Origin: Acuticoccus sediminis
Lineage (GTDB): Bacteria > Pseudomonadota > Alphaproteobacteria > Rhizobiales > Amorphaceae
Direction: 5' to 3'
Length of the DNA: 64,000 nucleotides
NCBI RefSeq assembly: GCF_003258595.1
Contig: NZ_QHHQ01000003.1
Location: forward strand, 496,001 to 560,000
The notes beneath the pieces are model-generated. The model saw only the letters and a program-made list of their open reading frames with translations. It did not search any database and was not told where the DNA came from. Below are positions 21,386-64,000 of this stretch, in pieces. The position numbers were made by a program, and so were the translations under genes. The stretch's first letter is position 1; the number at the start of each line of letters is the position of its first letter.

Positions 21386-21614
21386 CGATTCCCCCCGGCT
21401 GTCTTGCGGAGGCTCCATGCGCCTCCGCAACCTATTTTCCTCAGTGTAACACGGGAGGCTGGACCTCCGGCGCAAGAGATCCGCGCATTTTCCGGGCGCT
21501 TTCGAGGAATTCTCGCCTCGGAGAGATTTGCGTTGCCTGCGCGCCGTGGGCGAATACCGGCGTGGTACGGAATTTCCCGCGCGCCGGGCCATACGCCTCC
21601 CGGTCGCGTCGCGA

Positions 21615-22220
21615 CTACCCCCGAGCGGTGTCGGACCGGCCCGTGGGCCATGTGGAGAGGGCCTGCCCGACGACCGCCTCGAGCTTCGCGCGGCTGAAGC
21701 CGGCCTTGGCCTGCACCGCCATCCCGTGGAGGACCGCCATGACGAAGGCCGCGAGGGCTTCGGGACTGGCCGTCTCCGGCAGATCGCCCTCCGCCTTCGC
21801 GCGCTCGAAGCGGTCACGGATCCGCGCCTCCCCGTCCGCACGCGCATCGATCAGCGCCCGGCGCACCGGCTCCGCACCGTCGGAGGCCGCCAGCGCCCCG
21901 TTGATGGCGAGGCACCCGGTATGGTCCGGATAGCGTGTGTTGAGGTCGACGGCGCTGTACAGGATGTGCGCCGCAACCTCGCGGGCCGTGGGGCGCTCAA
22001 GCGCTTCGGGGATGTAGCCCAGGTACCGCTCCTCGTAGCGCTCAAGGGCCCGGCGGAAGAGCGCTTCCTTGTTGCCGAAGGCCGAGTAGAGAGCCGGCCG
22101 CTCGACACCGGCCGCGGCCGTCAGGTCGGCGTAGGACGCGCCCTCGTAGCCCTTGCGCCAGAAGACACACAGCACGGCGTCCAGCGCCTTCTCCACGTCA
22201 AACTCGCGATGGCGCCCCAT
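21615..22220 (-). CDS. TetR/AcrR family transcriptional regulator
   Basis: A 201-residue repressor: the N-terminal HTH spans [23 protein letters not shown], and a TetR_C ligand domain follows. The start [16 protein letters not shown] at 22220 matches the usual family start; the longer frame runs through operator-like DNA and is unlikely. It is transcribed divergently from the SDR gene, and the intervening repeats are the probable binding sites. Its ligand is unknown; the SDR substrate or an electrophile is a common type of inducer in such pairs. Confidence 0.9.
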
Positions 22221-47900: not shown

Positions 47901-48923
47901 CTATGGCTCCACGCGCGTCATCGGTCCTTCGGCGGAACGGTACACCGCCTGGACCAGCGCGAACGTCTTGAGGTTGTCGGTCCCCGAAGTCTCGGGCAGG
48001 CGCCCTTCGGCGAGGCACCGGGCGGCATCCCGCTGGAAGGCGAGGACGCTCTCCTGGATGAGGTGCGCCGGTGCCGCCGCCCAGTCGAGGGGACGGGGCG
48101 CAACGTCCCGCACCGTCGTCCCGCCGTCCCTGCGGTGGACCGTCAGGCGATAGTCGGCGTCGAGGCGCAGCGTGCCCTCGCTGCCGTCCACCTCCACCAG
48201 CGTCTGCGGGAAACGCTCGTGCGGCAGCGCGGTGGCGTAGGAGCAGTCGACGACGGAGGTGACGCCGTTCGCGTGCCCCATCAGGACGGTGGCGACGTCC
48301 TCGGCGCGGATCGCCGGGTTCACCCGCTTCGTCGTCGCCGACAGATGAGCCACCTCGCCGAACAGGAACCGCGCGATGTCGAGGATATGGATGCCGAGGT
48401 CCTCGACGATGAAGCGCTCGTCCGTCGCGAGGTAGGGCTGGCGGGCATAGACGTCGAAGGCCGAGCGGAAGGAGCAGCGGCCGAAGAAAGGTGTGCCGAC
48501 CGCCCCCTCCTGCATCGCCGCCTTCACCGCGCGGATGGGCGTCTGCCAGCGGAAGTTCTCGTGGATGGCGAAAGGAACGCCCGCGGCCGCGCAGGCCGCC
48601 ACCATCGCCTCGGCGTCCGCCATCGTCCGGGCGATGGGCTTCTGGCAGATGATCGCGATGCCGCCGTGGGACGCCACCGCCTCCACCAATGCGCGGTGCG
48701 TGCGTGGCCCGGTGGCGATGTCGACGAAATCGAGCGCCTCCGCCGCCAGCATCGCCTCCAGCGAGGTGTAGGTCCGGCCAATGCTGAACGTCTGCGATGC
48801 GGCGGCGAGCCGTGCCGGGTCGGTGTCGCACAGGGCGACGATCGCCGCGTCCGGCACCTGTCGCCAGGCGTGGAGGTGGTTCTCGGCGAAGTAGCCGCAG
48901 CCGATGAGCGCGCCCTTCAGCAT
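47901..48923 (-). CDS. apsD: Gfo/Idh/MocA family dehydrogenase, D-apiose dehydrogenase-like
   Basis: A 340-residue oxidoreductase: Rossmann GCGYFAENHLHAW at the N-terminus and the substrate motif CQKPIARTMADAE, where the usual Glu of EKP is Gln. The GFO_IDH_MocA C-terminal domain contains EDLGIHILDIARFLFG. In the apiose pathway ApsD, from this same superfamily, oxidises D-apiose to apionolactone, which the lactonase of this locus would open. Its stop and the permease/regulatory genes are tightly packed (ATGA overlap with the permease). Without the neighbours it would be just a Gfo/Idh/MocA enzyme. Confidence 0.78.
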   Translation of the reverse strand: MLKGALIGCGYFAENHLHAWRQVPDAAIVALCDTDPARLAAASQTFSIGRTYTSLEAMLAAEALDFVDIATGPRTHRALVEAVASHGGIAIICQKPIARTMADAEAMVAACAAAGVPFAIHENFRWQTPIRAVKAAMQEGAVGTPFFGRCSFRSAFDVYARQPYLATDERFIVEDLGIHILDIARFLFGEVAHLSATTKRVNPAIRAEDVATVLMGHANGVTSVVDCSYATALPHERFPQTLVEVDGSEGTLRLDADYRLTVHRRDGGTTVRDVAPRPLDWAAAPAHLIQESVLAFQRDAARCLAEGRLPETSGTDNLKTFALVQAVYRSAEGPMTRVEP

Positions 48924-49987
48924 CAGCCGAGCGCCGCCTGGCGCTGCAGGGCGGCGCGCTGCTGCAGGCGCTGCTGGAACTGGTCGACGACCACGGCCGC
49001 GATGATGACGACGCCCTTGATCACCGTCTGCCAGAACGACGAGACGCCCATCATCACGAGCCCGTCCGAGAGGATGCCGATGACGAAGGCGCCGACGATG
49101 GTCCCGGCAATCCGCCCGCGCCCGCCCGACATCGACGTGCCGCCGAGGACCGCGGCCGCGATGGCGTTGAGCTCGAACGTCTCGCCCGTCGCAGGGTGCG
49201 CGGCAACGAGCTGGGACGAGATGACGATGCCGACGATCGCCGCGCAGAAGCCCGAGAACATGTAGACGAAGAGCTTGACTCGATCGACCTTCACGCCCGA
49301 CAGCGCGGCGGCCCGCTCGTTGCCGCCGACCGCGTAGATGTGCCGCCCGAGGGGCGTGCGCTGGGCGATGTACGCCGCGAGGCAGCCGACGACGATGAGC
49401 ATCCAGATGGAGAACGGGATCCCCAGGATGTTGCCCGAGCCGATCCACGGATAGGACGCGGTCCCGTACGCCTCCTTGCCCGAGAGGTTCGGGAAGGTGC
49501 CGCCGTCCGACGACAGCAGTGCCAGCCCCCGCGCCACGTAGAGCGTGCCGAGCGTCGCGATGAACGGCGCCACGTTGAGCTTGGTGATCAGCAGCCCGTT
49601 GACGAGACCGACGAGGATGCCGACGCCGAGCGTGATGAGGACGATCTCGTAGGTGTTGAAGAACACCGTGTAGCCGACCGGGCCGAGGTCGATCCCGTTC
49701 AGCACGAGGTAGCCCGCCACCATCCCGCAGAGCCCCACGATGGAGCCGACCGAAAGGTCGATGCCGCCGGTGATGATGACGAACGTCATGCCGATGGCGA
49801 GGAACGCGTTCAGCGCCACATGCTCGGACATGATGACGAGGTTGGCCGGCGACAGGAAGTTCGGCGCGGCGAACGAGAAGAAGACGATGACCGCGATCAG
49901 CGCGATGAACGTCCGCCCCTTGAGGAGCAGCATGCCGATGCTGACGTTCCGGCCGGCGCCCGCCGCCTCCATGGTCCCGGTCGTCAT
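48923..49987 (-). CDS. Sugar ABC transporter permease (RbsC type)
   Basis: A 354-residue membrane protein with about ten hydrophobic segments. It carries the family marks NFLSPANLVIMSEHVALNAF, GGIDLSVGSIVGLCGM and AVGGNERAAALSGV, the last in the cytoplasmic coupling loop. The start is at 49987, overlapping the ATPase stop by four bases, and its stop overlaps the ApsD-like start. It is part of a ribose/xylose-type importer presumably taking up D-apiose or a related branched sugar. Confidence 0.92.
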   Translation of the reverse strand: MTTGTMEAAGAGRNVSIGMLLLKGRTFIALIAVIVFFSFAAPNFLSPANLVIMSEHVALNAFLAIGMTFVIITGGIDLSVGSIVGLCGMVAGYLVLNGIDLGPVGYTVFFNTYEIVLITLGVGILVGLVNGLLITKLNVAPFIATLGTLYVARGLALLSSDGGTFPNLSGKEAYGTASYPWIGSGNILGIPFSIWMLIVVGCLAAYIAQRTPLGRHIYAVGGNERAAALSGVKVDRVKLFVYMFSGFCAAIVGIVISSQLVAAHPATGETFELNAIAAAVLGGTSMSGGRGRIAGTIVGAFVIGILSDGLVMMGVSSFWQTVIKGVVIIAAVVVDQFQQRLQQRAALQRQAALG

Positions 49988-51534
49988 GCGGCGTTCTCCT
50001 CGATCGGTGCGTGGTGGGGACCGTGGCCGACGGAGGACAGGCGCACGATGGTCGGCTCGTCGGCCTCGGCGATGGACAGCTCGCCGGTGATCCTGCCGTT
50101 GGACATGACGATGATGCGGTCGGACAGCTCCATCACCTCCTGCAGGTCGGAGGTGACGAAGAGGATGCCGAGCCCCTCCGCCGCAAGCTCGCGCATCACG
50201 CGGAAGACCTCGGCCTTGGCGCCGATGTCGATGCCGCGCGACGGCTCGTCCATGAGGAGGACCTTCGGCCCCGTCATCAGCGCCTTGCCGATGACGACCT
50301 TCTGCTGGTTCCCGCCCGACAGCGACGATACCGGGTTGGCGACGTCCGCCACCTTCACCGCGAGCCGGCGCACGTAGTCGGCGATGGTGCGCTTCTCCGC
50401 CCCGACGTCGAGGTGGAAGAGGCGCACGAAGCGGTTGAGACTCGACAGGCTCATGTTCTCCGAGACGGGGAGGATCTGGACGAGCCCCTCCGCCTTGCGG
50501 TCCTCGGGGATGAGCGCGATACCCGCCTCGATCCGGCCGTGGATGGAGCGTCCCGAGATGTCCTTTCCGGCGAGAACGACCTTCCCGGTGGCCGCATGCT
50601 CGCGGCCCATGATGCAGTCGAAGAGCTCGGACCGGCCGGCGCCCATGAGGCCGTAGATCCCGACGATCTCGCCCGCCCTGAGCGTCAGCGAGACGTGGTC
50701 GACCTTGTAGCCTCCGCCCCGGCGCGGCAGGGTCATGCCGTCGACGTCGAGGACGGTGCCGCCGAACGCGTGCTGGACCGTCTTGGCGAAGTCCTTGGAG
50801 CGGGCGCCGATCATGGCGCGCACGATCCAGTCGACGTCGACCTCGGCCATCGGCCGGCTGCCGGTGACCTTGCCGTCGCGCAGCACCGTGATCCAGTCGC
50901 CGACCCGCACCAGCTCCTCGAGGCGGTGCGAGATGTAGACGATGGCCGTCCCCGCGGCCTTCAGCTCGCCGATGACGCGGAAAAGGATCTCCACCTCCGC
51001 AGCCGACAGCGCCGACGTCGGCTCGTCCATGATGATGACGCGCGCGTCCTGGGAAAGCACCTTGGCGATCTCGACGATCTGCTGCTCGCCGATGCGCAGG
51101 TCCGCGACCGGCATGTCGGGCGGGTTGTCGTGCTCGAGCCTCGCCATCAGTGCGGCCGCCATCTCCCGCTGGCGGCGGGCGTCGATGTCGATTCCCGCAC
51201 GCGTCTTCTCGCGGCCGATGAAGATGTTCTCGGCGATCGAGAGGTTCGGGAAGAGGTTCAGCTCCTGGAAGACGATGCCGATGCCGTGCCGGGCGGCGTC
51301 CGCCGGGCTGTCGAACTGGACCGGAGTGCCGTCGACCAGCACCTCGCCCTCGGTCGGCTTCTCCACCCCGGCGATGATCTTCATCAGGGTCGACTTGCCC
51401 GCCCCGTTCTCGCCGACCAGCACATTGACCATGCCGCGGCGCACGTCGAAGTCCACGTGGTCCAGCGCCCGTGTGCCCGGATAGACCTTGCTCGCCCCGC
51501 GCACCGAGACGACGATGTCCCCCGCCTCGCTCAC
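49984..51534 (-). CDS. Sugar ABC transporter ATP-binding protein (RbsA type)
   Basis: A 516-residue double-ATPase. The first nucleotide-binding half has Walker A GENGAGKST and signature RIGEQQIVEI; the second half has the signature LSGGNQQKV, while its Walker A is degenerate (YGLMGAGRSEL), as is normal for RbsA. The start at 51534 overlaps the DUF2291 stop. This is the motor of the importer. Confidence 0.93.
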   Translation of the reverse strand: MSEAGDIVVSVRGASKVYPGTRALDHVDFDVRRGMVNVLVGENGAGKSTLMKIIAGVEKPTEGEVLVDGTPVQFDSPADAARHGIGIVFQELNLFPNLSIAENIFIGREKTRAGIDIDARRQREMAAALMARLEHDNPPDMPVADLRIGEQQIVEIAKVLSQDARVIIMDEPTSALSAAEVEILFRVIGELKAAGTAIVYISHRLEELVRVGDWITVLRDGKVTGSRPMAEVDVDWIVRAMIGARSKDFAKTVQHAFGGTVLDVDGMTLPRRGGGYKVDHVSLTLRAGEIVGIYGLMGAGRSELFDCIMGREHAATGKVVLAGKDISGRSIHGRIEAGIALIPEDRKAEGLVQILPVSENMSLSSLNRFVRLFHLDVGAEKRTIADYVRRLAVKVADVANPVSSLSGGNQQKVVIGKALMTGPKVLLMDEPSRGIDIGAKAEVFRVMRELAAEGLGILFVTSDLQEVMELSDRIIVMSNGRITGELSIAEADEPTIVRLSSVGHGPHHAPIEENAA

Positions 51535-52181
51535 GACGCCGCCTCGATGCCGATCTCGACCGGCGTCACGAGCAGCGTCTCCCCGGCCTTGCGCACGGTG
51601 ACGGCGCCGATGGCGTGCACGGTGCTGCCGACGAGCGCGTCGCGTGGCAGGTCGGCCAGCACGGTATCGTAGGCTTCGGTGTTGAGGGCCTTGGCGACCT
51701 GGGCGAATTCGATCTGGTTCTCGAAGTCGGTGAAGGAGATGAACGGCAGGACGTCGCGGATCGCGGTGCCGCGGATCACCGGGCCGAGCTGCAGCGTGAC
51801 GTCCGCCGCCCCGTCGCCGTCGGTGTCGACGCCGGCGGTCGCGGCGCGCGACTCGGTGTTGGCCTCGACGATCTTGCCGTCGACGACCACCGCGTAGCTG
51901 AAGGGCGTACCCTCCCCGCCCTCGCGGTAGCCGTACTGCGCGCCGGCGTCCTCGAGGCCCCTGGCGAGCGCCGCGGCGACGGTGGCGACGGGGACCGCCT
52001 TATCACGCATGTGCGGCAGGACCTTGCCGGACCAGTCGTCGAGCGACGCCGTCTTCGCCTGGCGCGCGGTCGCGGCGGCCTCGGCGGCGGCGGTCAGCTC
52101 GGCCGTCTCCACGAACTTGCAGCCGGTGAGCCCCAGCGCCAGCAGCAGCGCAAGGCCTGTTCGTCGCACGCTCCGATCCAT
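51531..52181 (-). CDS. DUF2291 family lipoprotein
   Basis: A 216-residue protein with a lipobox LGLTGC near residue 20, predicting a lipid-anchored periplasmic protein. The body has the DUF2291 pattern (FSYAVVVDGKIVEANTESRA, PFISFTDFENQIEFAQVAKALN). Members are encoded in ribose-type ABC operons, as here, between receptor and ATPase, and their role is not established. The ATG at 52181 is chosen over one at 52202 because it gives a normal lipoprotein signal. Confidence 0.85.
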   Translation of the reverse strand: MDRSVRRTGLALLLALGLTGCKFVETAELTAAAEAAATARQAKTASLDDWSGKVLPHMRDKAVPVATVAAALARGLEDAGAQYGYREGGEGTPFSYAVVVDGKIVEANTESRAATAGVDTDGDGAADVTLQLGPVIRGTAIRDVLPFISFTDFENQIEFAQVAKALNTEAYDTVLADLPRDALVGSTVHAIGAVTVRKAGETLLVTPVEIGIEAAS

Positions 52182-52270
52182 GGCGTCCGTCCCTCTCGAC
52201 ATTCGGGCTTGGGGTATCGCGTCGCTGGCCCGCCGGCCGGATCGTCGGGACCCGGCCGGCGGGCGCAGGC

Positions 52271-53275
<1,005 letters not shown>

Positions 53276-53292
53276 TCAGCTTGTGGTGGGCG

Positions 53293-54117
53293 TCAGGTGA
53301 TCCGGCGGATGCTCTCCATGATCTCGTCCGGCTCGAAGACCTTCTTCCAGTCGGGCTGCATCAGGACGGGCATCGCGTTCTCGATCGCCTTGTTGCAGGC
53401 GTCGGAGAACACGCCCTCGACCTCCTCGAAGATCACCGCTCCGAGGACGTTCATGTGGCCGAGCAGGAAGTCCCGCGCGGCCTCCTTGTCGACGCCGCGG
53501 GCGACGACCTCGTCCATCGCCTGCCGCATCGCCAGCAGCAGCGTGGCGGCGACGGTCTCCGAGAGGCCCGGTTCCAGCAGCGCCATCTGCTCCACCGTCA
53601 CGCGGTGGGAGCGCAGGATGGGCTTCCAGATCGTCTTCGCGATGGCCTCGCCGACGGCGTAATGCTCCTCCGGCCCCTGCATCAGCGCGTTGACGATCGA
53701 CTGCTTCGCCGCGATGCCGCCGAAATGGTCCCGCAGCGCGTCGATGTCCGGCTCGTCGCCGAAGATCGGCGGATGGCACGGGTGCGTGACGAAATAGGAA
53801 ATGTCCGCCCGCTCGGGAAGGTGGCCGGCGTGCGGGGCCGCGGCGTCGAGGCAGATGACGACGGTGCCCGGGTCGAGCTTCGGCACGAGCGGCCCGGCGA
53901 CCTTGCCGATCAGAGTGTCCGGCACGGCGAGGACGACGGCGCCGGCGCCTTTGACGGCGGTATCGAGGTCGACGCAGTCGGCGCCGATGGCGTCCTTGAG
54001 GCGCTTCCGGCCGACGTCCGACACCTCGACGTACGCGACGTCATAACCGGAGCCGACGAGGTTGTTGGCGAGCCTCACGCCCATTTTTCCGCCGGCGCCG
54101 AGGAGAGCAAGCTTCAT
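53293..54117 (-). CDS. apnO: D-apionate oxidoisomerase-like protein
   Basis: A 274-residue Rossmann protein starting MKLALLGAGGKMGVRLANNL, with DAAAPHAGHLP and THPCHPP in the substrate region and a helical C-terminal domain like 6-phosphogluconate dehydrogenase. ApnO converts D-apionate to 3-oxo-isoapionate, combining oxidation and 1,2-migration. It is the first gene of the locus, with an operator-like motif about 50 bases upstream. Family resemblance is good; function is supported by the surrounding pathway genes. Confidence 0.78.
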   Translation of the reverse strand: MKLALLGAGGKMGVRLANNLVGSGYDVAYVEVSDVGRKRLKDAIGADCVDLDTAVKGAGAVVLAVPDTLIGKVAGPLVPKLDPGTVVICLDAAAPHAGHLPERADISYFVTHPCHPPIFGDEPDIDALRDHFGGIAAKQSIVNALMQGPEEHYAVGEAIAKTIWKPILRSHRVTVEQMALLEPGLSETVAATLLLAMRQAMDEVVARGVDKEAARDFLLGHMNVLGAVIFEEVEGVFSDACNKAIENAMPVLMQPDWKKVFEPDEIMESIRRIT

Positions 54118-54261: not shown

Positions 54262-55089
54262 TCAGCTGTCGGGGGCGAAGTCCGCCGTGCAGCGCAGGCC
54301 CGACGGGATCTTCTCGCCGGGGTTCGGCAACGTGATGCGCACGCCGAAGGTGCCGCTCGCCGGGTCGAACACCTGGTCGACCACGTCGACCTTGCCGACG
54401 TAGCTGCCGCCGACCGGCTCGATCGGATGGATCGTCACCGGGTCGCCGACCTTGACCGACGCGAAGAGGCGGATCGGCGCGAAGACCTCGATCCGCAGCG
54501 GGTCGATCCGCGCGATCCTGGCGATGTTGGCCTGCTCGTGCGCGTATTCGCCCGCCTGCAGCAGCCGTTCCAGCACGACGCCGGCGATCGGGCTCTTCAC
54601 CGCCCGGCGCTCCAGCACCGTCTCCGCCCGCTTCAGCTCCACCTGCGCCATGGCGAGCTGCCGCTCGGTCGAGGAATGCTCGATCTCGCGCACCTCCCGC
54701 AGCATCTGCGCCTCCTCGAGGGTCGCCTGGGGGACGGTGCGTCGCTCGAACAGGGTCTGGGTGCGCTCGAGCGTGCGCGTCTGGTTGAGGAGGCGCGATG
54801 CCGACGCGCGCACCGAGCTGTCGTCCTCCGCCTTCTCCTTCGCCATCTCGACGGCGATGCGCTCGAGCTGGGAGTCGAGCCTGGCCACCACGTCGCCAGC
54901 GTCCACCCGGTCGCCGCGGTCGACGACCATCTCGTCGATCACCCCTTCCACCGGGGTCGCGAGCTCGATGACGAGGTCGGGCTCGATGAGGCACTCCAGC
55001 GTCTCCGCCCGTGCGCCGGAGGCGATCAGGCAGATCACCGCCACGGTCAAACAGCGCTGCAACATGGCCATCCCTTTCGCCTCTCTCAT
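54262..55089 (-). CDS. HlyD-family membrane-fusion (periplasmic adaptor) protein
   Basis: A 275-residue adaptor with an N-terminal signal-like hydrophobic stretch ending near GARAET. A biotinyl-lipoyl hairpin half is visible in TPVEGVIDEMVVDRGDRVDAG, then a coiled-coil region from about residue 80 to 160, the second lipoyl half SPIAGVVLERLLQAGEYAH, and a beta-barrel part. The start at 55089 overlaps the SecA-like gene's stop by four bases. It has no adjacent RND or MacB pump; instead it ends the candidate export operon. Its likely job is to bridge inner and outer membrane for that system. Confidence 0.78.
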   Translation of the reverse strand: MREAKGMAMLQRCLTVAVICLIASGARAETLECLIEPDLVIELATPVEGVIDEMVVDRGDRVDAGDVVARLDSQLERIAVEMAKEKAEDDSSVRASASRLLNQTRTLERTQTLFERRTVPQATLEEAQMLREVREIEHSSTERQLAMAQVELKRAETVLERRAVKSPIAGVVLERLLQAGEYAHEQANIARIARIDPLRIEVFAPIRLFASVKVGDPVTIHPIEPVGGSYVGKVDVVDQVFDPASGTFGVRITLPNPGEKIPSGLRCTADFAPDS

Positions 55090-57056
55090 TCCGGAGGACC
55101 GCCGAAGGCCAGCATCGTGTCGGTGCGCCGGTCATGACGGATGAGGGCGCGCCGGGCCGCGTAGTGCATCCGCTCCGCCTGCCGCTGCGCGATGCGCACG
55201 AGGCAGCGCCGCGCCACCATGGCAAGGAACCCCCGCCCGCGAGCGATAGGCGCGAGGAGCGGCGTCCGGGCGGTGACGACGAGCGGATCGTCCAGCGCCA
55301 GGATCGCCTCGGTGGAGCCGGGCTCGCCCTGCCGCGCGGTGCGGCCCTCGAGCTGCCGGTCGATGCGCCCTGCGCTGTGCCGCTCCGTCAGGATGACGTG
55401 GAGCCCGCCGCGCGCCGCCACCCCCTCGCCGAGCGCGATATGGACCCCGCGCCCCGCCATGTTGGTCGCGACGGTCACCTGCCCCGCCTCGCCGGCCCGG
55501 GCGACGATCGCCGCCTCCTCGCGGTCGTTGACGGCATTGAGGACCGTATGGGGAATGCCGGCCTCGCCGAGGGCGCGGCTCGCGCGCTCGCTCGCGGCGA
55601 CGGAGCGGGTGCCGATGAGCACCGGCCGCCCCTCCGCGCGCAGCACGCCCGTGCGTGCCGCGACGGCGGCCCACTTCTCCTCCGCACCGGTGTGAACCCT
55701 TGCCCGGTGGCGCCGCATCCCCGACGGGCGGTCCGGCGCGACGCGGATGGTGACGAGGCCGTAGGTCCTGGCGATCTCGTCCCGCACCTCCCGCGCGGTC
55801 CCCGTCAGCCCGGCGAGGCGCATGTAGCGGGAAAAGAATCGCTGGTAGGAGGTGCGGGCGAGCGTCGTCTTGCGGCCGGTGAGCCTCACGTCCTCCTTCG
55901 CCTCGACGTACTGCTGCAGGCCTTCGCTCCATGAGCGCTCGGGCATCAGCCGCCCGGTATACTCGTCGACGATCACCACCTTGCCGTCCTTGACGACGTA
56001 CTGCTCGCCCCGCTGCATCAGGTGGCGGGCGACGAGGGCGCTGCGGACCGCGTCCTCGCGCCGGAGCCGGTTGGCGAACGGGCCGTGGGTGACGCGCTCG
56101 GCCAGCAGCGCGCGGCCGTCCTCGGTGAGCGACACCCGCCGCTCGGCCGGCACCACCATGTAGTGAATATCGGCGGTGAGGAGGTCCGCGAGCGCGAACG
56201 CCTCGCGGGCCTCCGCGGCATCGGCGCCCCCCTCGACCTCGCGCGAGAGGATGAGTGGGATGCGCGCCTCGTCGATGAGCACGCTGTCGGCCTCGTCGAC
56301 GATGGCGAACGGCAACCCCCGCAGCACCGGCTGGCGCCGCCCGGGTCCGCCCCGGCCGGTCAACGCCGACACCTTCAGCGAGACGTCGTCGAGTTGGCCG
56401 CCGGTCCCCACGCGGTCGCGCAGGTGGTCGAAGGCGAGCGCCTTGTTGGACACGGTGACGATATCCGCCCGGTAGGTCCCGCGCCGGGCGCTCTCGTCGT
56501 CCCCTTCGGCGATGGCGCCGACGGTGAGGCCGAGCCGGCGGTACAGCGGCGCAAACACCTCGGCGTCGCGGACGGCAAGGTAGTCGTTCACAGTCACGAT
56601 GTGGACCGGCGTACCGGAGAGGGCCGCAACGGCGGCTGCGAGTGCCGCGACGAGGCTCTTGCCCTCGCCGGTCTGCATCTCCACCAGCCGCCCCCCCAGA
56701 AGCGCCAGCGCGCCGAGCGTCTGGCCCGGGTGCGGATCGAGCCCGACGGTGCGCCGCGCGACCTCCCCGACGATCGCGAGCGCCGCCGCGTGGTCCGCCG
56801 GACCTGCACGCAGCTCGTCCCGCAGCCGGCGCGCCGCGCCGATTAGGTCGCCGTCGGTCGCGTCGCGGATACCGGCCCGCATCGCGTCGCAGCGTGCGGC
56901 CTCCCGACGGCAGCGGCGGTGGATGAGGAAGGCCGTCCGGGTGGCGAGGACGGCCTTCATGCCGTCCGCCGCGTCGTCCCAGCCCGTCCGCCGCTCCAGC
57001 GGCCGCTGCGGATAGAGGTTGAGGTGGAGGCCGCCGGCGACCGCCGCGTCAGGCAT
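55086..57056 (-). CDS. SecA-like ATPase, C-terminally truncated
   Basis: A 656-residue SecA relative, compared with 850-950 for housekeeping SecA. Walker A QTGEGKSL lies at residues 128-135 and the DEAD box at 254-257. VSNKALAFDHLRDR marks the preprotein cross-linking region, and NMAGRGVHIALGEGVAARGGLHVI replaces the usual NMAGRGTDI. Motif VI appears as QLEGRTARQGEPGS, with Arg fingers retained. The chain ends shortly after a long helix (RMHYAARRALIRHDRRTD), so the C-terminal helical-wing and zinc-linker parts are missing. It overlaps the SapC-like gene by eight bases. I read it as an accessory motor specialised for the linked system. Confidence 0.85.
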   Translation of the reverse strand: MPDAAVAGGLHLNLYPQRPLERRTGWDDAADGMKAVLATRTAFLIHRRCRREAARCDAMRAGIRDATDGDLIGAARRLRDELRAGPADHAAALAIVGEVARRTVGLDPHPGQTLGALALLGGRLVEMQTGEGKSLVAALAAAVAALSGTPVHIVTVNDYLAVRDAEVFAPLYRRLGLTVGAIAEGDDESARRGTYRADIVTVSNKALAFDHLRDRVGTGGQLDDVSLKVSALTGRGGPGRRQPVLRGLPFAIVDEADSVLIDEARIPLILSREVEGGADAAEAREAFALADLLTADIHYMVVPAERRVSLTEDGRALLAERVTHGPFANRLRREDAVRSALVARHLMQRGEQYVVKDGKVVIVDEYTGRLMPERSWSEGLQQYVEAKEDVRLTGRKTTLARTSYQRFFSRYMRLAGLTGTAREVRDEIARTYGLVTIRVAPDRPSGMRRHRARVHTGAEEKWAAVAARTGVLRAEGRPVLIGTRSVAASERASRALGEAGIPHTVLNAVNDREEAAIVARAGEAGQVTVATNMAGRGVHIALGEGVAARGGLHVILTERHSAGRIDRQLEGRTARQGEPGSTEAILALDDPLVVTARTPLLAPIARGRGFLAMVARRCLVRIAQRQAERMHYAARRALIRHDRRTDTMLAFGGPPE

Positions 57057-57813
57057 CCGCCCCGGCAGGCTCGACAGGAGCCTCGGCCGCCTCCGACGCG
57101 CCGGACCGCTCGGCGACCGATGCGAAGTGCCGGAGCGAGGCTAGGTGCAGGTAGACGCACTCCAGCTCGTCCGTCTTCAGCATCGTCATGAGGACGCTCT
57201 CGTCGAGCGCCTTCAGCCGGTCCCGGTCCACGGTCTTGAACCCGTTGAGCTGGCGTCGCTCGCCGTTGGGCAGGGTGAACTTGGCCTCCATGTCGCGCAG
57301 GAGGTCGTGCTCCATGAGGCGCTGGCAGAAGATGCGGGTCCGGTTGAACTGCCGCTGGTAGTCCTGGAGGAAGCGCAGCACCTGCTTCAGGTAGTGGGTC
57401 TGGTTGCCCTCGCCGTCGAACAGCCGCTCGCCCCGGTCCTCGGTGTTGCAGCCCTCGAACTCCTCGTCGATGTGGAGGACGAGCTGCCCGTCGCTGGTCT
57501 CGTGGCTGAAGACGAACGGGTAGCGCCGTACGAAGGCCGGCACGTAGCGCCCGCCCCACTTGCCCTCGCCCGAGACGAAAGCGTTCTGCGAGCCGGTCGC
57601 GCCGAGGATCGCCGTCGGCACGATATTGTCCCCCGCGCCGGCGAAGACGATGGGCATCTCGGCCCCCGCGTCGGCAAATTCCGAAGCGACGAGGGGCACG
57701 GAATTGACGTTGCGGGCAAACGCGAAGCTATCGCCCGCCTTCACCGACGTCATCTTGTGACGCTGTGCATTCACGGGAACGGCGTTTCTATAGAACAACA
57801 GTTGCGTCGCCAC
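57049..57813 (-). CDS. SapC-like protein
   Basis: A 254-residue protein resembling SapC, named from Campylobacter S-layer protein loci where its role is unsettled. It has no signal peptide. Visible segments are MTSVKAGDSFAFARNVNSVP, GATGSQNAFVSGEGKWGGRY, and a helical C-terminus with FQRLMEHDLLRDMEAKF-like content. The gene overlaps the SecA-like gene and lies 70 bases below the M50-HlyD gene. In SapC-type loci it is found with surface-protein export, so a chaperone or targeting role for the giant substrate is possible, but this is inference. Confidence 0.75.
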   Translation of the reverse strand: MATQLLFYRNAVPVNAQRHKMTSVKAGDSFAFARNVNSVPLVASEFADAGAEMPIVFAGAGDNIVPTAILGATGSQNAFVSGEGKWGGRYVPAFVRRYPFVFSHETSDGQLVLHIDEEFEGCNTEDRGERLFDGEGNQTHYLKQVLRFLQDYQRQFNRTRIFCQRLMEHDLLRDMEAKFTLPNGERRQLNGFKTVDRDRLKALDESVLMTMLKTDELECVYLHLASLRHFASVAERSGASEAAEAPVEPAGADA

Positions 57814-57883
57814 GGGTCGTCTCCCTTGTGATCGTCTGTGCCATGTCGTGATTGTTCATCTTCGGTCGGGACATGGCCAATCA

Positions 57884-60040
57884 TTAAACCGAGAATGTGG
57901 ACAAGAAGATTTGACGGGCGCGGCGATAGACGCGCACCGCGATCGGCGTCGGCGCGTGGACGAACCGCAGCATGACCCGCGCGCCGATCGCCTCGAACGG
58001 CTGCCCGGCCGGCGGCTGGACTTCGAGGGCGAGGAAATTCTGCAGCGCGCGCGCCTCTTCGACCGGGCGTGCCGGGTCGAGAACGATGCGGCCGCCGCCG
58101 ACGGTCGCGAGCGCCAGGCTCGGGAGGGTCGCCGTCAGCCCCGGCACCTCGCGCGTCACCGTCCCGTCGTGGACGGTGGCCGGATTGGTGACGAAGCGCA
58201 TCTCCACCCGTCGTGTCGCGGTGCGCACCAGGTCGGCGTCCGCCTCGGGGATCAGGGTCGCAACGACCGGATCGACGAAGGGGCTGACGAAGCCGACGAC
58301 GTCGCCCTTGCGCACCGCACGCCCGACGAGGTCCGTATGCCCCGGCAGCGCCACCCGCCCGCCGGTGCGTGCGCGCACCATGAGGCCCGACATGCGGACC
58401 TTGGCGAGGGCCAGGTCCTCCCGCGCATGGGCGAGCTCGGCGGCGGTGACGCGCGCGCGGCCCGGGTCGATGGCGCGCACGGCGTCATAGCGGGCCTGAC
58501 GCTCCACCACCGTCGCCTCGAGCAGCGCCACGCGGGCCGCGAGCAGCGGGTCGGCGAGGCGCAGCACCGGCGCCCCGGAGGCAACCTCCGCGCCCTGCGC
58601 CACCAGCACCTCGGCGACGGTCCCGTCCACCTCGGCGACGAGCCGCCCCTCGCTCGGCGTCGTCACCACGCCTTCCGCCATGGTGGCGAACGGCAGCGGG
58701 ATCGCGAGCAGCACGAACGCCACAACGGCGACGACCGCGCCGAGCCGGGCGAGCGCCCTGCCGCGCGTGCGGTTGAGCACCGGCGAGGTGAACAGGAAGC
58801 CGAGCCATTTGACGACCGGCACGACGAACATCAGCGTCAGCGCCCAGAGCGCCATGACCACGCCGACGACGAAGAATTTCGTCGCGACGAACAGGATCAC
58901 CGCCGAGAAGATCATCAGACGGTAGAGGAACGCCGCGACGGCATAGAAGACGAACCACCCCGCCTCCCCCGGCGCGGTCGCGGGGTTGCGCACGTCCTTG
59001 GCCCCGAGGATCCGCGTCTGCACCCAGTAGCCGATGTAGAGGTTGGCGCGGCGGGCGAGGTTCGGAATCTCGACGAGGTCGGAGAGGACGAAGTAGCCGT
59101 CGAAGCGCAGCAGCGGGTTGCCGTTGAAGAAGACCGTCGAGACGCCGCCGATGAGCATGACGTTGAACGCGAACGCGCGCACGACGCCCGCCTCGGCCCC
59201 GGTCCAGACGATCATCGCCACCGCCGCCATCGCCATTTCGGCGAGGATTCCGGCCGCCGCCACCAGCGCGCGCTTCCATTTCTGCGGGAAGGACAGGCTG
59301 TCGGAGGCGTCCACGTAGGGGACCGGCAGGAAGACGAGGAGCATGACGCCGATCTCGTGCACCTCGCCTCCAAAGCGCTTGATCATGTAGGCGTGACCCA
59401 GCTCGTGGATCGCCTTGATCGCCGGATAGGCCACCAGGATCAGCGCGATGTTCTGCAGCGAGAGCACGCGGTCGAGCACATTGTGGGTGAGCTCACCCCA
59501 GTGGACGGCCGCCAGCGCGATTCCCGTCAGCACGAGGAGAGCCCACGCCACGAGCCCCGCGACGGAGAGGATCGGCCGCACGAGCGGCAGTGTGAGCCGC
59601 AGAAAGCCGTCCGGATCGAGCACCGGGATCCGGATCGCGAGCGGGTTGATGACGCGCATCAGCCGTGCCCGCGAGCGACCCTTGCGGCCGCGCTCGGCCA
59701 GCTCCTCGATGTCCGGCGGGACGTCGCCCACCAGGACGTCGGCGTGGTGGAGGGTCGCCAGCAGGCGGATGACGTCGTCCTGGGCCAGCGCCTCCGCGGC
59801 CAGCGCCTCGCAGGCGATGTCCCAGGCCTCGCTGGTGGTCCGCGTCCCGTCGAGCAGCGAAATGAAGAAGTACGCCGCCGGGGTGAAGCGGTGGAAGCGC
59901 CCCGAGGTGCGATCCTGCAGGACGTACCAGAGCGTCCCGCGATAGTGTGTCCGGTGCAGCCGCACGTGGTTGCGAAGGCGCAGCTTCAGCTCGGCGACGC
60001 GGAACCAGTTGGGGCTGTGCAGGCGCTTCTCGGCGGCCAT
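57884..60040 (-). CDS. PqqD-like / M50 metalloprotease / HlyD fusion protein
   Basis: A 718-residue fusion. Residues 35-75 look like a PqqD-type winged helix (YVLQDRTSGRFHRFTPAAYF). After several transmembrane helices from about residue 150, the M50 site 2-protease zinc motif HELGH lies at 212-216, with the second site NGNPLLRFDGYFVLSDLVEI further on. The C-terminal third is a HlyD-type barrel-sandwich segment (RLVAEVDGTVAEVLVAQGAEV) with a coiled coil. It is probably anchored in the inner membrane with the HlyD part in the periplasm, and it could cleave or sort an exported substrate within the membrane. The start at 60040 has GGGAGGGTG upstream. Relatives occur as peptide-processing transport partners. 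Confidence 0.85.
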   Translation of the reverse strand: MAAEKRLHSPNWFRVAELKLRLRNHVRLHRTHYRGTLWYVLQDRTSGRFHRFTPAAYFFISLLDGTRTTSEAWDIACEALAAEALAQDDVIRLLATLHHADVLVGDVPPDIEELAERGRKGRSRARLMRVINPLAIRIPVLDPDGFLRLTLPLVRPILSVAGLVAWALLVLTGIALAAVHWGELTHNVLDRVLSLQNIALILVAYPAIKAIHELGHAYMIKRFGGEVHEIGVMLLVFLPVPYVDASDSLSFPQKWKRALVAAAGILAEMAMAAVAMIVWTGAEAGVVRAFAFNVMLIGGVSTVFFNGNPLLRFDGYFVLSDLVEIPNLARRANLYIGYWVQTRILGAKDVRNPATAPGEAGWFVFYAVAAFLYRLMIFSAVILFVATKFFVVGVVMALWALTLMFVVPVVKWLGFLFTSPVLNRTRGRALARLGAVVAVVAFVLLAIPLPFATMAEGVVTTPSEGRLVAEVDGTVAEVLVAQGAEVASGAPVLRLADPLLAARVALLEATVVERQARYDAVRAIDPGRARVTAAELAHAREDLALAKVRMSGLMVRARTGGRVALPGHTDLVGRAVRKGDVVGFVSPFVDPVVATLIPEADADLVRTATRRVEMRFVTNPATVHDGTVTREVPGLTATLPSLALATVGGGRIVLDPARPVEEARALQNFLALEVQPPAGQPFEAIGARVMLRFVHAPTPIAVRVYRRARQIFLSTFSV

Positions 60041-60056
60041 CACCCTCCCCCCGGCG

Positions 60057-61925
60057 TCACGGCGCGTACTGCCACAGGGTGAGGCGCGCCCAGTTGACGA
60101 GCCGGCGCGTCCAGATGACGACCAGAAGGCGCTCGTCCACGTCCGTGCGCGCCGCGCCTTCCATGCCGGGACGGAGCCAGTCGGCATCGTCCCGCAGCGA
60201 GGCCTCGACGCGGTAGGCGTTGCGCCCGTCGTGGCTCTCGGCAACCGGGGTCACCATGTCGACGGTATAGCCGAGCGCCTCGCCCGGGCGGGCGGCGAGG
60301 ACGAGGTGGCCGGTCTGTCCCGGCTCCACTTCGGCGACGTCCCCCTCGTCGACCTCGATGACGACGCGGTAGGCGTCGAGCGGGGCGATCCTGAACAGCT
60401 CCTCGCCCCGCTCGACGGCCGCACCGACGGACTGGCTGAGGTCGCCGGAGACGACGATCCCGTCGAACGGCGCGGTGATCCGGGTTCGGGCGATCTGTTC
60501 CTCGATGAGGGCGAGCTGCGCCTCGGCCTGGGCGATCTGGCTCTTGATGATCGCCGCCTGGGCACGGTTCCGCTCGGCGAGTGCGCGATCGTACTCCACC
60601 TCGCGCTGGCCGCGCGCGGTCGTCCAGCGGAGCCGCTCGAGGTTGAGGTCCTGATCGTCGAGGGTCGCGATCAGCTCCCCCTCGCGGACGGTTTCGCCCG
60701 CCCGCACGGTCTGCGTCGCGACGTAGCCGGCGAACGGCGCCGTGACGGTGCGCTGCACCGCGCCCTCCACCCGGGCCGGACCGCCGACGGTGAATTCGCC
60801 GGTCACCGTCAGCGCCAGATAGGCGAGGATCGCCACCGCGACAGTCGCGAGCTTGGCCCCCAGATGGCGCGGTCCGAACAGCCGCGCGAGGAGCCCGCCG
60901 ACCGCCTCCGCGACCTTGAGGACGATCGGCCGGTCGTTGCGCCGCATCTCGGCCAGCACCGGGCCGACCATGCTGGCGACGGCGTCCACGAGCTCCACGG
61001 TCTCGTCATCGAAGGGGGCGCTCGCCGGCCGTTCCAGCGTCATCGCGCCGATCACCGCGCCCTTGGCCTGGATCGGCACGGTCAGCACCGAGCCGGCCTG
61101 GTGCGCGAGCGCCAGCTCCTCGTGCATCCGGGTGATGCGGTAGTCCCAGTGCGCGGGCGGCGGATAAAGGACGATGTCCTCCTGGTCGACCGCCTCGTCC
61201 ATCGCCCGGCCGAGGCCCTGCATGAGATTCATGCGGCTGGCGAAGCTCGAGGCGTGGCTGACCGCCGCGACATGCACACGACGCCGCCGCCTGATGCCGA
61301 GGCTGACGGGGTCGCAGGCGAGCTCGCGCGCCAGCTCCGTGACGAGCGCCATCGCCGCATCGTCGAAGCGCCGTGCGGTCAGGACCGTGGCGAGGAAGGT
61401 GAGCGCCTGCTGCGTGCGGTCGCGCACGGCGGCATCGCGGGCCCCCTGCTCGCGGCGCAGCAGCGCCTCCAGCCAGCCGGCGCCCCAGCGCAGGCGGCGC
61501 ATCGCCTCCCCCTCGGCGACGGCCCCGCGGGAAACGGCGAGCGCCACCGTGCCGTAGAGCGATCCGTCGACGACGACCGGGTGCGCGATGACGGTATCCG
61601 CTGGCGGCGCCGGCATGAGAACGCCGCGCCGGTCCGCCATCGCCGCCTCGGCCGCGCGCATCAGCGCCCGCCCCGGCGCATCGCCGGAGGGGATCGTGGC
61701 GACCGACTCGAACGGGCCCGTGTCCGGCGCGCCGAGGACCGCCACGGCATGGTGCGCGCCCGGGATCTGCCGGCATTGCAGGCCGAGCCAGGCGGCAACG
61801 AACGCCTCGGGGCTCTCCGCGCCGGAGAAGTTCGCCCACAGCGACTGGTCGATCAGCGAGAAGCTGACCCGCTCACCCTGGAGCGGATCCGCCTCGCCTT
61901 GGCTGGATTGGACGTCCACGTTCAC
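60057..61925 (-). CDS. GAF-domain HlyD-type adaptor protein
   Basis: A 622-residue protein. Residues 1-150 are a poorly characterised domain, and about 180-345 form a GAF-like ligand-binding domain (ACDPVSLGIRR, AGSVLTVPIQAKGAVIGAMTLE). A short hydrophobic helix follows around residue 370 (GAKLATVAVAILAYLALTVT). The C-terminal 230 residues are a classical HlyD adaptor: APFAGYVATQTVRAGETV, a coiled coil, and ITAPFDGIVVSGDLSQSVGAAVERGEEL. GAF is normally cytoplasmic and HlyD periplasmic, so the middle helix should cross the inner membrane. Signal-gated assembly of the export machine is an inference. Confidence 0.82.
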   Translation of the reverse strand: MNVDVQSSQGEADPLQGERVSFSLIDQSLWANFSGAESPEAFVAAWLGLQCRQIPGAHHAVAVLGAPDTGPFESVATIPSGDAPGRALMRAAEAAMADRRGVLMPAPPADTVIAHPVVVDGSLYGTVALAVSRGAVAEGEAMRRLRWGAGWLEALLRREQGARDAAVRDRTQQALTFLATVLTARRFDDAAMALVTELARELACDPVSLGIRRRRRVHVAAVSHASSFASRMNLMQGLGRAMDEAVDQEDIVLYPPPAHWDYRITRMHEELALAHQAGSVLTVPIQAKGAVIGAMTLERPASAPFDDETVELVDAVASMVGPVLAEMRRNDRPIVLKVAEAVGGLLARLFGPRHLGAKLATVAVAILAYLALTVTGEFTVGGPARVEGAVQRTVTAPFAGYVATQTVRAGETVREGELIATLDDQDLNLERLRWTTARGQREVEYDRALAERNRAQAAIIKSQIAQAEAQLALIEEQIARTRITAPFDGIVVSGDLSQSVGAAVERGEELFRIAPLDAYRVVIEVDEGDVAEVEPGQTGHLVLAARPGEALGYTVDMVTPVAESHDGRNAYRVEASLRDDADWLRPGMEGAARTDVDERLLVVIWTRRLVNWARLTLWQYAP

Positions 61926-61973
61926 CGAAACCTGCCGCCCCTCAGCACGAGCACTGCCACAAGCCCCACCGCC

Positions 61974-64000
61974 TCAATCGAAGAACCGCGAGAGCCACCC
62001 CAGCGGGGCACCCCGGCCCTGCCACGAGATGAGCCCGGACGACGGCGCGTCACCGGTATCCCCGTCCAGCACCGCCGGCTCGTCCGACGGGCCGGCGCCG
62101 AGCGTGGCGACGTGCGGCGCGGCACTGGTGTCAACGAACTCGTGCAGGGACTCGTCGAACACCAGCGTGCCCTCCTGGATCGGCGCCATCATGTCGGCGA
62201 CCTCGGCGATCGTGTCGTAGTTGCCGGAGGCGAACGCCGCCTGCAGCAGCGACTGCGTCTGCTGGAGGGCCGACATCGAGGCCGCCAGCTGATCGGCCGC
62301 CGCCGGCGCGATGCTCACGCCCCGGGCGACGTTCGGAAGCTGCAGGTGCCGCGCGCCGCCGAACAGGATGTCGCCGGCCGGCGCGCTCGCCTGCGGGACC
62401 GACCCGGCCGCCGCCGCACCGTCCGTGCGAGACCGAATCGCCTGCATCAGGTTGTCGAACAGGCCGGAGCTCTGCGCGATGGTGATGATCACCGGCTCCT
62501 GGTCGTTCACCGTCACCGTCCCGTTCGGCGCGAACAGCCCGCCGGGGTTGATGATGCGCGGGTGATCGATGTCCTGGTTCGGCGGCGAGACGTTCGACTC
62601 GGCGAAGAAGGCCGTGCCGGCGTTCACGACGACCACGTCGGTCGCGAACGGATTGTCGTCGCCCGCCGTCAGCACGATGTCGCCGTTGAAGGAGTTGGCG
62701 AGCACTACGCGCAGGATGCCGTTGGTCTCCGTGACGACGATGTCGCCCGGCGCCTCGAACGCCACGTCGTCGCCGCCGGCCAGCGAACCGGACGGACCGG
62801 TCGAGCCGATCCGCGTGTCCACCTCCAGGGCGTTGTTGAGCGTGCCGATGGAGGAGCCGGCACCGTGGACGTCGATGTCCAGCTCGCGGGCGAAGATATC
62901 CGTCGCCGCATCGTTCTGGATGTCGACCACGGAGCCGCTCCGGGTGCGCAGCGACACGTCCTGAAGCGAGTTGATGGTCGCGACATTCATGTTGCCGACC
63001 AGCTCGTCGAGGTAGATGCCGCCCGTCCGCACACCCGCGAACGACACCGCGTTGAGGACGCCCGGCCCGTGCGCCGCCGAATCGATCTCCAGGAAGTCGC
63101 CGAGGATGCCGACGCCGGTCGCGAACGGCGCGGGGTTCTCGTCCGTCGGCAGGCCGGAGATCAGGAAGACCCCGTTGCCGGACACGTCGAGTGTCGGGGA
63201 CGACTGGACCGACGTGAAGGCGTCGATCAGGCGACCCGGCGCCGCGATGGTGACGTTGCCGGCGGTCGACTCGATGAGCGAGATCCGAAGGTCGCTCGTG
63301 CGCTCCTGCACGACGATGTTGCCGTTGGTCACGACCGTCGCGGCGCCGAGGACGTTCTGGTTGCCGCCGGCCCAGTTCACGTCGGTGGAGATGGCGAAGT
63401 TGACGGTCGTGTCCGGCACGTCGTCGACCACGACGGAGCCGTAGTTCGCCTCGCCGCCGCCGATGCTGGTGGTCCGCGTCGAGGCCGCCGTATCGCCCAC
63501 GTAGTCGAACGTCGTCGACACGTGGCCGATGTCGAGGAACCCGCCGGACCTCGCCTCCGCGAACAGGTAGGTGGAGTCGATCTCGACGAAGTCGGTCCCC
63601 AGCGCGCGCAGGATGTTGTCGATCCCCGGCGAGGAGATGTCCGGCCGGAAGTGCAGGTTGTAGATGCCGCTGCCGGGCTCGAGCGGGCCGACGGGGTTCT
63701 CCGGATCGATCCCCGGCGGATCGTAGAGGTTCACCGTGACGGTGCCCGCGTCGATCCCGTTGAAGCCCTCGCGGGTGTCGTTGACGACGACCTCGAGGTT
63801 GTCGCCGGCGGTGATGCGCTCGATCGCAACCGTCTCCGAGAAGTCGCCGGTGCTGTCCGAGTTCGGCCCGTCGGCGCGGTCCATGGCGGTGATGTCGACG
63901 TCGACGTCGCCGAGGGCGTCGATGGTCGCCTGCCAGTCCTGCACGACGCCGTCCATGTCGCGGTAGCGCACCAGCTCGATCGCGATCGGCACGCGGATGT
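61974..64000 (-). CDS. C-terminal part of a giant repetitive surface/secreted protein (partial, runs off window)
   Basis: At least 672 residues, with the frame open to the window edge. The sequence is rich in Gly, Asp, Val, Thr and Asn with repeated short beta-strand units (GNVTIAAPGRLI, ADIVVTETNG-like, GDIVLTAGDDNPF), typical of filamentous-hemagglutinin or calcium-rich adhesin helices. The last 150 residues become Ala-rich and end in GWLSRFFD. The end could be the export or anchoring signal. It is immediately upstream, by 48 bases, of the GAF-HlyD gene, so it is the likely cargo of the linked machinery. Its N-terminus and size are unknown here. Confidence 0.75.
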   Translation of the reverse strand, partial: IRVPIAIELVRYRDMDGVVQDWQATIDALGDVDVDITAMDRADGPNSDSTGDFSETVAIERITAGDNLEVVVNDTREGFNGIDAGTVTVNLYDPPGIDPENPVGPLEPGSGIYNLHFRPDISSPGIDNILRALGTDFVEIDSTYLFAEARSGGFLDIGHVSTTFDYVGDTAASTRTTSIGGGEANYGSVVVDDVPDTTVNFAISTDVNWAGGNQNVLGAATVVTNGNIVVQERTSDLRISLIESTAGNVTIAAPGRLIDAFTSVQSSPTLDVSGNGVFLISGLPTDENPAPFATGVGILGDFLEIDSAAHGPGVLNAVSFAGVRTGGIYLDELVGNMNVATINSLQDVSLRTRSGSVVDIQNDAATDIFARELDIDVHGAGSSIGTLNNALEVDTRIGSTGPSGSLAGGDDVAFEAPGDIVVTETNGILRVVLANSFNGDIVLTAGDDNPFATDVVVVNAGTAFFAESNVSPPNQDIDHPRIINPGGLFAPNGTVTVNDQEPVIITIAQSSGLFDNLMQAIRSRTDGAAAAGSVPQASAPAGDILFGGARHLQLPNVARGVSIAPAAADQLAASMSALQQTQSLLQAAFASGNYDTIAEVADMMAPIQEGTLVFDESLHEFVDTSAAPHVATLGAGPSDEPAVLDGDTGDAPSSGLISWQGRGAPLGWLSRFFD

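Follow-up and report, generated by a model that had tools for sequence, protein, structure and literature searches.

A conserved operon of short SecA, M50-HlyD and HlyD-type genes is linked to giant LEPR-XLL proteins and may encode a dedicated export machine

How proteins of 8,000 to more than 15,000 residues leave cells is poorly understood. We analysed a stretch of 64,000 nucleotides from Acuticoccus sediminis (the window; positions 496001-560000 of contig NZ_QHHQ01000003.1, here C3, in a draft genome of 7.76 Mb). It holds an operon that is conserved across genomes and linked to giant proteins. The operon encodes a short SecA-like ATPase, a PqqD-M50-HlyD fusion, two more HlyD-type adaptors and a SapC family protein, and the gene upstream encodes a giant with an N-terminal LEPR-XLL motif. 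We argue that this is probably a type-I-like export machine that does without an ATP-binding cassette (ABC) transporter and is dedicated to the upstream giant. The weakest step is the role of the short SecA as its motor. The argument starts from the conservation of the operon, the tight coupling of its genes, intact ATPase and metalloprotease motifs and the linkage to LEPR-XLL giants. Export, the function of the tag, cleavage and the motor role are what we infer.

The preliminary description of this DNA reported six co-directional genes with overlaps or short gaps, and this is what we find. All six are on the minus strand, in the order giant, GAF-HlyD, PqqD-M50-HlyD, SapC, SecA-like ATPase and HlyD, and the gaps along the run are 48, 16, 70, -8 and -4 bases. 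Positions are in window numbering unless they carry the contig label. The window contains the 3' end of the giant gene (61974-64000). GAF-HlyD (60057-61925) has a GAF domain at residues 188-321 that is predicted to be cytosolic, a hydrophobic segment at 356-374 and an HlyD adaptor part at 389-588. PqqD-M50-HlyD (57884-60040, with its start adjusted by comparison with homologues) has a PqqD domain that resembles the recognition elements (RREs) of ribosomally synthesised and post-translationally modified peptide (RiPP) systems, six hydrophobic segments and an HlyD-type barrel-sandwich part. The SapC family protein (57049-57813) has 254 residues and no hydrophobic segments. The short SecA (55086-57056) has 656 residues and ends in LAFGGPPE. 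The last gene (54262-55089) encodes a short adaptor of the HlyD/resistance-nodulation-division type that is predicted to be periplasmic and has a hydrophobic segment at its N-terminus. The Pfam E-values are 9e-80 for SecA_DEAD, 2e-71 for SapC, 6e-20 for HlyD_D23, 2e-12 for GAF and 3e-5 for PqqD. Peptidase_M50 scores marginally below its cut-off (26.9 against 27.2 bits). The HExxH motif and the N, P and D residues of the second motif (NxxPxxRFDGY) are invariant in 20 M50 homologues.

Past position 64000 the giant gene continues to 88013, so the whole gene spans 61974-88013 and encodes 8679 residues. Near its N-terminus it bears IEALEPRYLLSAD, which is the LEPR-XLL motif (87789-87851, or C3:583789-583851, minus strand, beyond the window). 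The giant scores 30.4 bits against the LEPR-8K model NF012209, whose cut-off is 17, and this is the single LEPR match in the genome. LktA_tand_53 repeats (NF012206) match 35 stretches across its 3995-residue middle part. The protein has only 3 Cys and 17 Lys but 1170 Asp and Glu. Its N-terminus is basic and has no strongly hydrophobic stretch by simple hydropathy (best 15-residue mean 0.71), and the giant appears to lack an obvious Sec signal peptide. We presume a surface location. Plasmid records annotated by others also label the giant as LEPR-XLL at three related loci (L078, L080 and L082).

We also looked for a conserved C-terminal signal. The tails of the giants are variable, with 35 of 465 tail pairs alike, and they yield only a weak hydrophobic-x-W motif near the C-terminus. 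Eleven of 31 giants have it, against a mean of 0.6 and a maximum of 4 over 1000 shuffles, with a pattern that was defined post hoc from tails already inspected. The bearers are the window giant (61974-62033) and those of L155, L156, L160, L162, L169, L176, L198, L219, L220 and L229. Some LEPR-bearing open frames elsewhere are larger still: 19,427 codons (G061:C115:112865, L100), 15,434 codons (G014:C1:496108, L123), and in genome G006 15,251 codons (C1:2799186, L126) and 14,920 codons (C1:2731726, L106). Read from the assemblies as they stand, these four rank among the longest bacterial frames.

The distribution of the parts was examined in 398 sampled Pseudomonadota genomes, the window genome included. 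PqqD-M50-HlyD has matches in 125 of them (E 0.001 or better), LEPR in 54 and the short SecA in 35, with 43 copies. A short SecA is defined here as a match above 350 bits; the next-highest matches, from 313 bits down, are full-length SecAs. Co-occurrence was counted over 133 M50 matches (at least 118 bits, 89 genomes), 43 SecA and 82 LEPR matches, and the M50 search scored two places per genome. For 39 of the 43 short SecA copies there is a same-strand M50 gene no more than 1 kb away; the other 4 are on contigs without a scored M50. Every one of the 35 short-SecA genomes has an M50 match, above 200 bits in 34 (Fisher 1e-42, with genomes treated as independent), and 32 have a LEPR match. An M50 match is also present in 52 of the 54 LEPR genomes (Fisher 3e-38, on the same assumption). 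A scored M50 lies no more than 20 kb away for 33 of the 66 LEPR frames of at least 1000 residues; for most of the rest, the contig has no scored M50 at all.

A scan of genome contigs with an M50 alignment confirmed at least 528 relatives, and the best 80 are our named loci (L numbers). These were chosen by M50 closeness and come from Pseudomonadota, Desulfobacterota-type, Nitrospira-type and Rokubacteria-type records. They include repeats (Roseovarius marisflavi twice, and L163/L204, apparently G143/G297). M50 is followed by a SecA-like gene (complete, or broken off at the end of the contig) in 77 of the 80; two contigs end early and L172 lacks the gene. The commonest arrangement between M50 and SecA is an 8-base overlap. 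GAF-HlyD precedes M50 in 75 loci (4 cut), a downstream HlyD is recognised in 58 (9 cut, 13 without a match), and a large low-complexity-type frame of more than 1500 residues is upstream in 30 and downstream in 8. The data support the gene combination as a conserved unit linked to giant proteins. Co-occurrence is widespread, so the genes are clearly not confined to one species, and the repeated linkage of M50-HlyD and short SecA across genomes rules out a chance neighbourhood or a species oddity.

What most strongly connects the N-terminal tag with the M50-HlyD machine is that the type of tag tracks the clade of the machine. We read 55 of the 82 LEPR sites, the last 15 of which were picked partly for a nearby M50, before the motif was read. 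A scored M50 lies within 20 kb of 32 of these 55. In the close clade (M50 at least 300 bits) the motif is [LMI]ExRxxxS in 18 of 20. The two exceptions, one with N and one with D, come from operons of Methylobacterium type whose giant is divergent. All 12 tags of the sister clade read LEPRxxxD (Fisher 4e-7 for close against sister clade, uncorrected for relatedness). Operons of the sister M50-HlyD proteins (below 180 bits) include a giant and commonly TolC, present at 8 of 11 sister loci, but have no short SecA. Azospirillum, an E. coli plasmid and Variovorax share the order giant, TolC, adaptor, HlyD, M50-HlyD. The E. coli plasmid giant starts with the related LESRQLFDGA and the Azospirillum giant with LEPRFMFDAA. 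PqqD is detected in 16 of 20 close-clade M50 proteins and in 0 of 5 sisters.

Two sister systems are worth describing for themselves. On the E. coli plasmid NZ_CP081687.1 (L084:1-13803) a SecA-free system comprises an Ig-like giant, TolC, an adaptor, HlyD and M50-HlyD. This type is found on IncF-type plasmids of E. coli. Of 5426 complete E. coli genomes, 24 have its M50 gene, and 22 of these carry at least 80% of the gene. In Variovorax (CP063167.1, L086:1-23000) the system has gsp genes resembling those of type II secretion next to it, as well as a giant gene that is 48,720 bases long.

We propose the following route. The giant would be addressed by its basic N-terminus and its LEPR-XLL motif. 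PqqD domains bind leader peptides in peptide biosynthesis, so leader recognition by the M50 protein is a natural guess: its RRE-like domain may help to recognise the leader and its M50 site could cut nearby. In the cytosol the short SecA would use ATP to feed in the unfolded chain, perhaps helped or chaperoned by SapC, whose part DUF3467 might take in other operons. M50-HlyD, GAF-HlyD and HlyD might then form an inner-membrane and periplasmic conduit to a TolC-type channel encoded elsewhere in the genome, and the GAF domain could gate the activity. One can imagine a bolder version in which this is a distinct system for the largest bacterial proteins. There M50-HlyD would read LEPR-XLL, a SecA-derived motor would work without SecYEG or ABC, and HlyD adaptors would lead to TolC. 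Its two machine types (the PqqD clade, mostly with SecA, and the sisters without) would read two dialects, LLS-A/G and xxD-G/A. We put this version forward tentatively and consider it rather doubtful.

The motor is where the proposal is most exposed. The short SecA aligns to residues 20-600 of B. subtilis SecA and ends at column 665 of 901 of E. coli SecA. It retains both ATPase domains and the preprotein cross-linking domain, but it lacks most of the helical scaffold and everything C-terminal to it, and so does not have the complete scaffold, wing and two-helix finger of a SecA or SecA2 translocase. Among 31 short SecAs, Walker A is kept in 30, TNMAGRG in 30 and GRxxRxG in all 31. Their C-terminus has its own pattern, L-[AS]-[FV]-x-G, in 26 of 31 by eye and in 58 of 69 with a looser pattern. 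A quick tree of 70 rows (two, L046 and L050, were omitted) splits 49 short from 21 full-length SecAs on one branch with a Shimodaira-Hasegawa-like approximate likelihood ratio test (SH-aLRT) support of 100. A decayed or mis-assembled housekeeping SecA is ruled out by this separate clade, by the conserved C-terminus and by a separate full-length housekeeping SecA frame in the genome. SecA and SecA2 share with the short form NBD1, the cross-linking domain, NBD2 (the two nucleotide-binding domains) and all ATPase motifs; unlike them it stops near E. coli residue 665 and has its own C-terminus and clade.

Several points weigh against the export machine as we draw it. Export, surface location and leader cleavage of the giant are predictions. 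The annotated start of the giant in one relative (L079/L234) has no LEPR motif, which weakens a strict rule. The co-occurrence tests are uncorrected for relatedness. Elsewhere in the genome there are a housekeeping SecA, OEP proteins and exporter-like ABCs. PqqD is found in none of 5 sister M50 proteins despite a related giant tag, so binding of the tag by PqqD is not general. Sister machines also lack the short SecA, which means that the core is able to work without it. Finally, E. coli SecA N68, which has a similar cut, is described in the passages available to us as binding SecYEG and having constitutive ATPase activity but no translocation (PMC5603524).

A rival reading, less probable than our own but a serious one, is that the machine exists and the short SecA is a targeting or regulatory factor that binds the chain or SecYEG. 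The drive would then come from housekeeping SecA-SecYEG, proton motive force or folding outside the cell. The truncation, which removes the scaffold and later domains, the N68 behaviour (PMC5603524, as far as its accessible text goes) and the SecA-free systems all favour this. Besides the sisters, four close-clade M50-HlyD systems lack the short SecA (L059, L060, L082 and L172), and in the genomes of L059 and L060 SecA matches only at the housekeeping level. Against it, nearly all copies retain the ATPase motifs and at most loci translational coupling ties the gene to M50-HlyD or SapC, which suggests that ATP hydrolysis matters. We regard the short SecA as a plausible candidate motor. The preliminary description proposed a candidate machine dedicated to the giant, whose motor may be the SecA-like protein. 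This is supported in part: the genes are a conserved unit tied to giants, but the motor role is less certain because sister machines lack SecA and a truncated E. coli SecA is reported not to translocate.

In another scenario the giant leaves through an ordinary type I ABC exporter whose genes lie elsewhere, and the operon only processes, anchors or regulates it. The genome does have exporter-like ABC genes, and some lie together with an OEP protein at C3:135-144 kb. LEPR-XLL giants with repeats-in-toxin (RTX) ends are also reported from Vibrio in the accessible part of PMC10868602. On the other side, all of the genome's ABCs fall below the LssB cut-off, and a motif test found no ABC-like open reading frame adjoining the operon in any of the 80 loci (3 have one 4-9 kb off). 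The three adaptors that are often present, and the TolC that is sometimes present, would be superfluous for mere anchoring or processing. We consider this scenario unlikely.

The window itself was first described as having no ABC exporter, TolC or TpsB. This holds for TolC, since none of the 6 OEP/TolC matches in the genome is inside the window (three OEP frames are elsewhere). The sole type-I-ABC-like match in the window (C3:496265-496915) has 118 bits against a cut-off of 693 and is an oligopeptide-importer-type gene, and the ABC gene near the operon (49984-51534) adjoins sugar-binding-protein genes. For TpsB, the ShlB search had no match in the genome, but control genomes were likewise silent, which falls short of showing absence. 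TolC is in the operon at 6 of the 80 named loci and closes it in L081 and L082. The OEP/TolC gene at C3:135835-143860 is flanked by two exporter-like ABC genes, and this cluster is a candidate ordinary type I system.

That the operon is a RiPP, daptide-like peptide maturation and export system with the giant as an unrelated neighbour is very improbable: PqqD is typical of RiPP systems and in NCBIfam the M50 protein comes closest to the daptide metalloprotease NF041824 (173.7 bits, under the 300-bit cut-off), but a giant lies within short flanks in 38 of the 80 loci and LEPR is linked to the operon. The daptide enzyme and the M50 protein share a PqqD-like plus M50 layout over residues 37-426. 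The latter differs in its additional HlyD part and its score below the cut-off, and no adjoining peptide biosynthesis genes were noted.

SapC and DUF3467 appear to be alternative members of the operon. Of the operons at the 80 loci, 15 have only SapC, 30 have only DUF3467, none has both and 35 have neither (Fisher 3e-4). DUF3467 (about 100 residues, function unknown) sits just upstream of GAF-HlyD in SapC-free operons, for example at L156:7679-8047 and in 29 other named loci. Strict mutual exclusion was rejected. Four DUF3467 loci have SapC outside the operon, about 3 kb beyond it in L165 and on the opposite strand in L163, L174 and L203, so we limit the claim to alternative operon members. 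The window genome has one SapC. Structure models reach a predicted local distance difference test (pLDDT) score of 84.5 for SapC and 69.1 for DUF3467, the latter modelled as three strands and a long helix. A SecB-like or other known fold is unsupported, since the best PDB matches of the models have E 0.29 and 0.33, with none at 0.001 or below, and sequence searches against PDB gave nothing convincing for either protein.

Type I systems for giant adhesins such as LapA and SiiE are one known parallel. These have HlyD-type adaptors, a TolC-type exit and an acidic, Lys- and Cys-poor giant cargo, as seen here or in relatives. The window operon has the HlyD-type membrane fusion protein of a type I system, but it has no ABC exporter and it has three adaptor proteins, one of them fused to an intramembrane protease. 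Also unlike these systems, the candidate tag sits at the N-terminus and the tails at the C-terminus vary. The window giant shares with LEPR-XLL proteins (NF012209) a tag above the cut-off and strong LktA_tand_53 repeat matches. No exporter is named in the visible part of the family entry or in the open-access passages on LEPR-XLL that we found; here the family is tied to an operon.

It must be noted that the core locus has already been described, including the idea of SecA in place of ABC. In the accessible text of Kamneva, Poudel and Ward (2015, PMC4452313), loci with M50-HlyD, HlyD/biotin-lipoyl, GAF-HlyD and a short SecA that lacks most of the wing-scaffold are reported, with no ABC and sometimes an OEP. 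Methylobacterium extorquens AM1 has such an operon in META1p2399-2402 according to that paper, and among our named loci Neptuniibacter caesariensis MED92 (L176) has one too. They suggested that SecA is the ATPase and M50 the membrane part, and they called the wider role unknown. As in their secondary SecA_DEAD locus, so far as described there, the short SecA of the window is distinct from the housekeeping SecA, and adjacent M50-HlyD, HlyD and GAF-HlyD genes are likewise present; the optional OEP/TolC gene has no counterpart in the window locus. The main text of that paper, as available, gave no match for SapC, PqqD, LEPR, giant or adhesin and names no cargo. The combination of parts that first looked unusual is thus a conserved unit tied to giants, but the part set was already on record (PMC4452313). 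As far as our searches of the open-access literature show, what goes beyond it is the LEPR-XLL cargo link, the SapC/DUF3467 alternatives, the PqqD domain, the SecA-free sisters and the match of tag and machine.

If the proposal is true, an orphan gene cluster gains a cargo and an address tag open to deletion tests. It would be a natural case of SecA re-use without the parts needed at SecYEG, and the tag-machine match would be a sequence rule for predicting the exporter of a given giant. Were the motor something other than SecA, an M50-HlyD core with TolC and no ABC partner would still be an unexplained export route in many proteobacteria.

Sugar ABC transporter genes with binding proteins flank the operon and giant on both sides (48923-54117 and 92852-96016). 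Farther off in the window, 19037-21847 encodes a large protein of 936 residues with a sulfatase domain.

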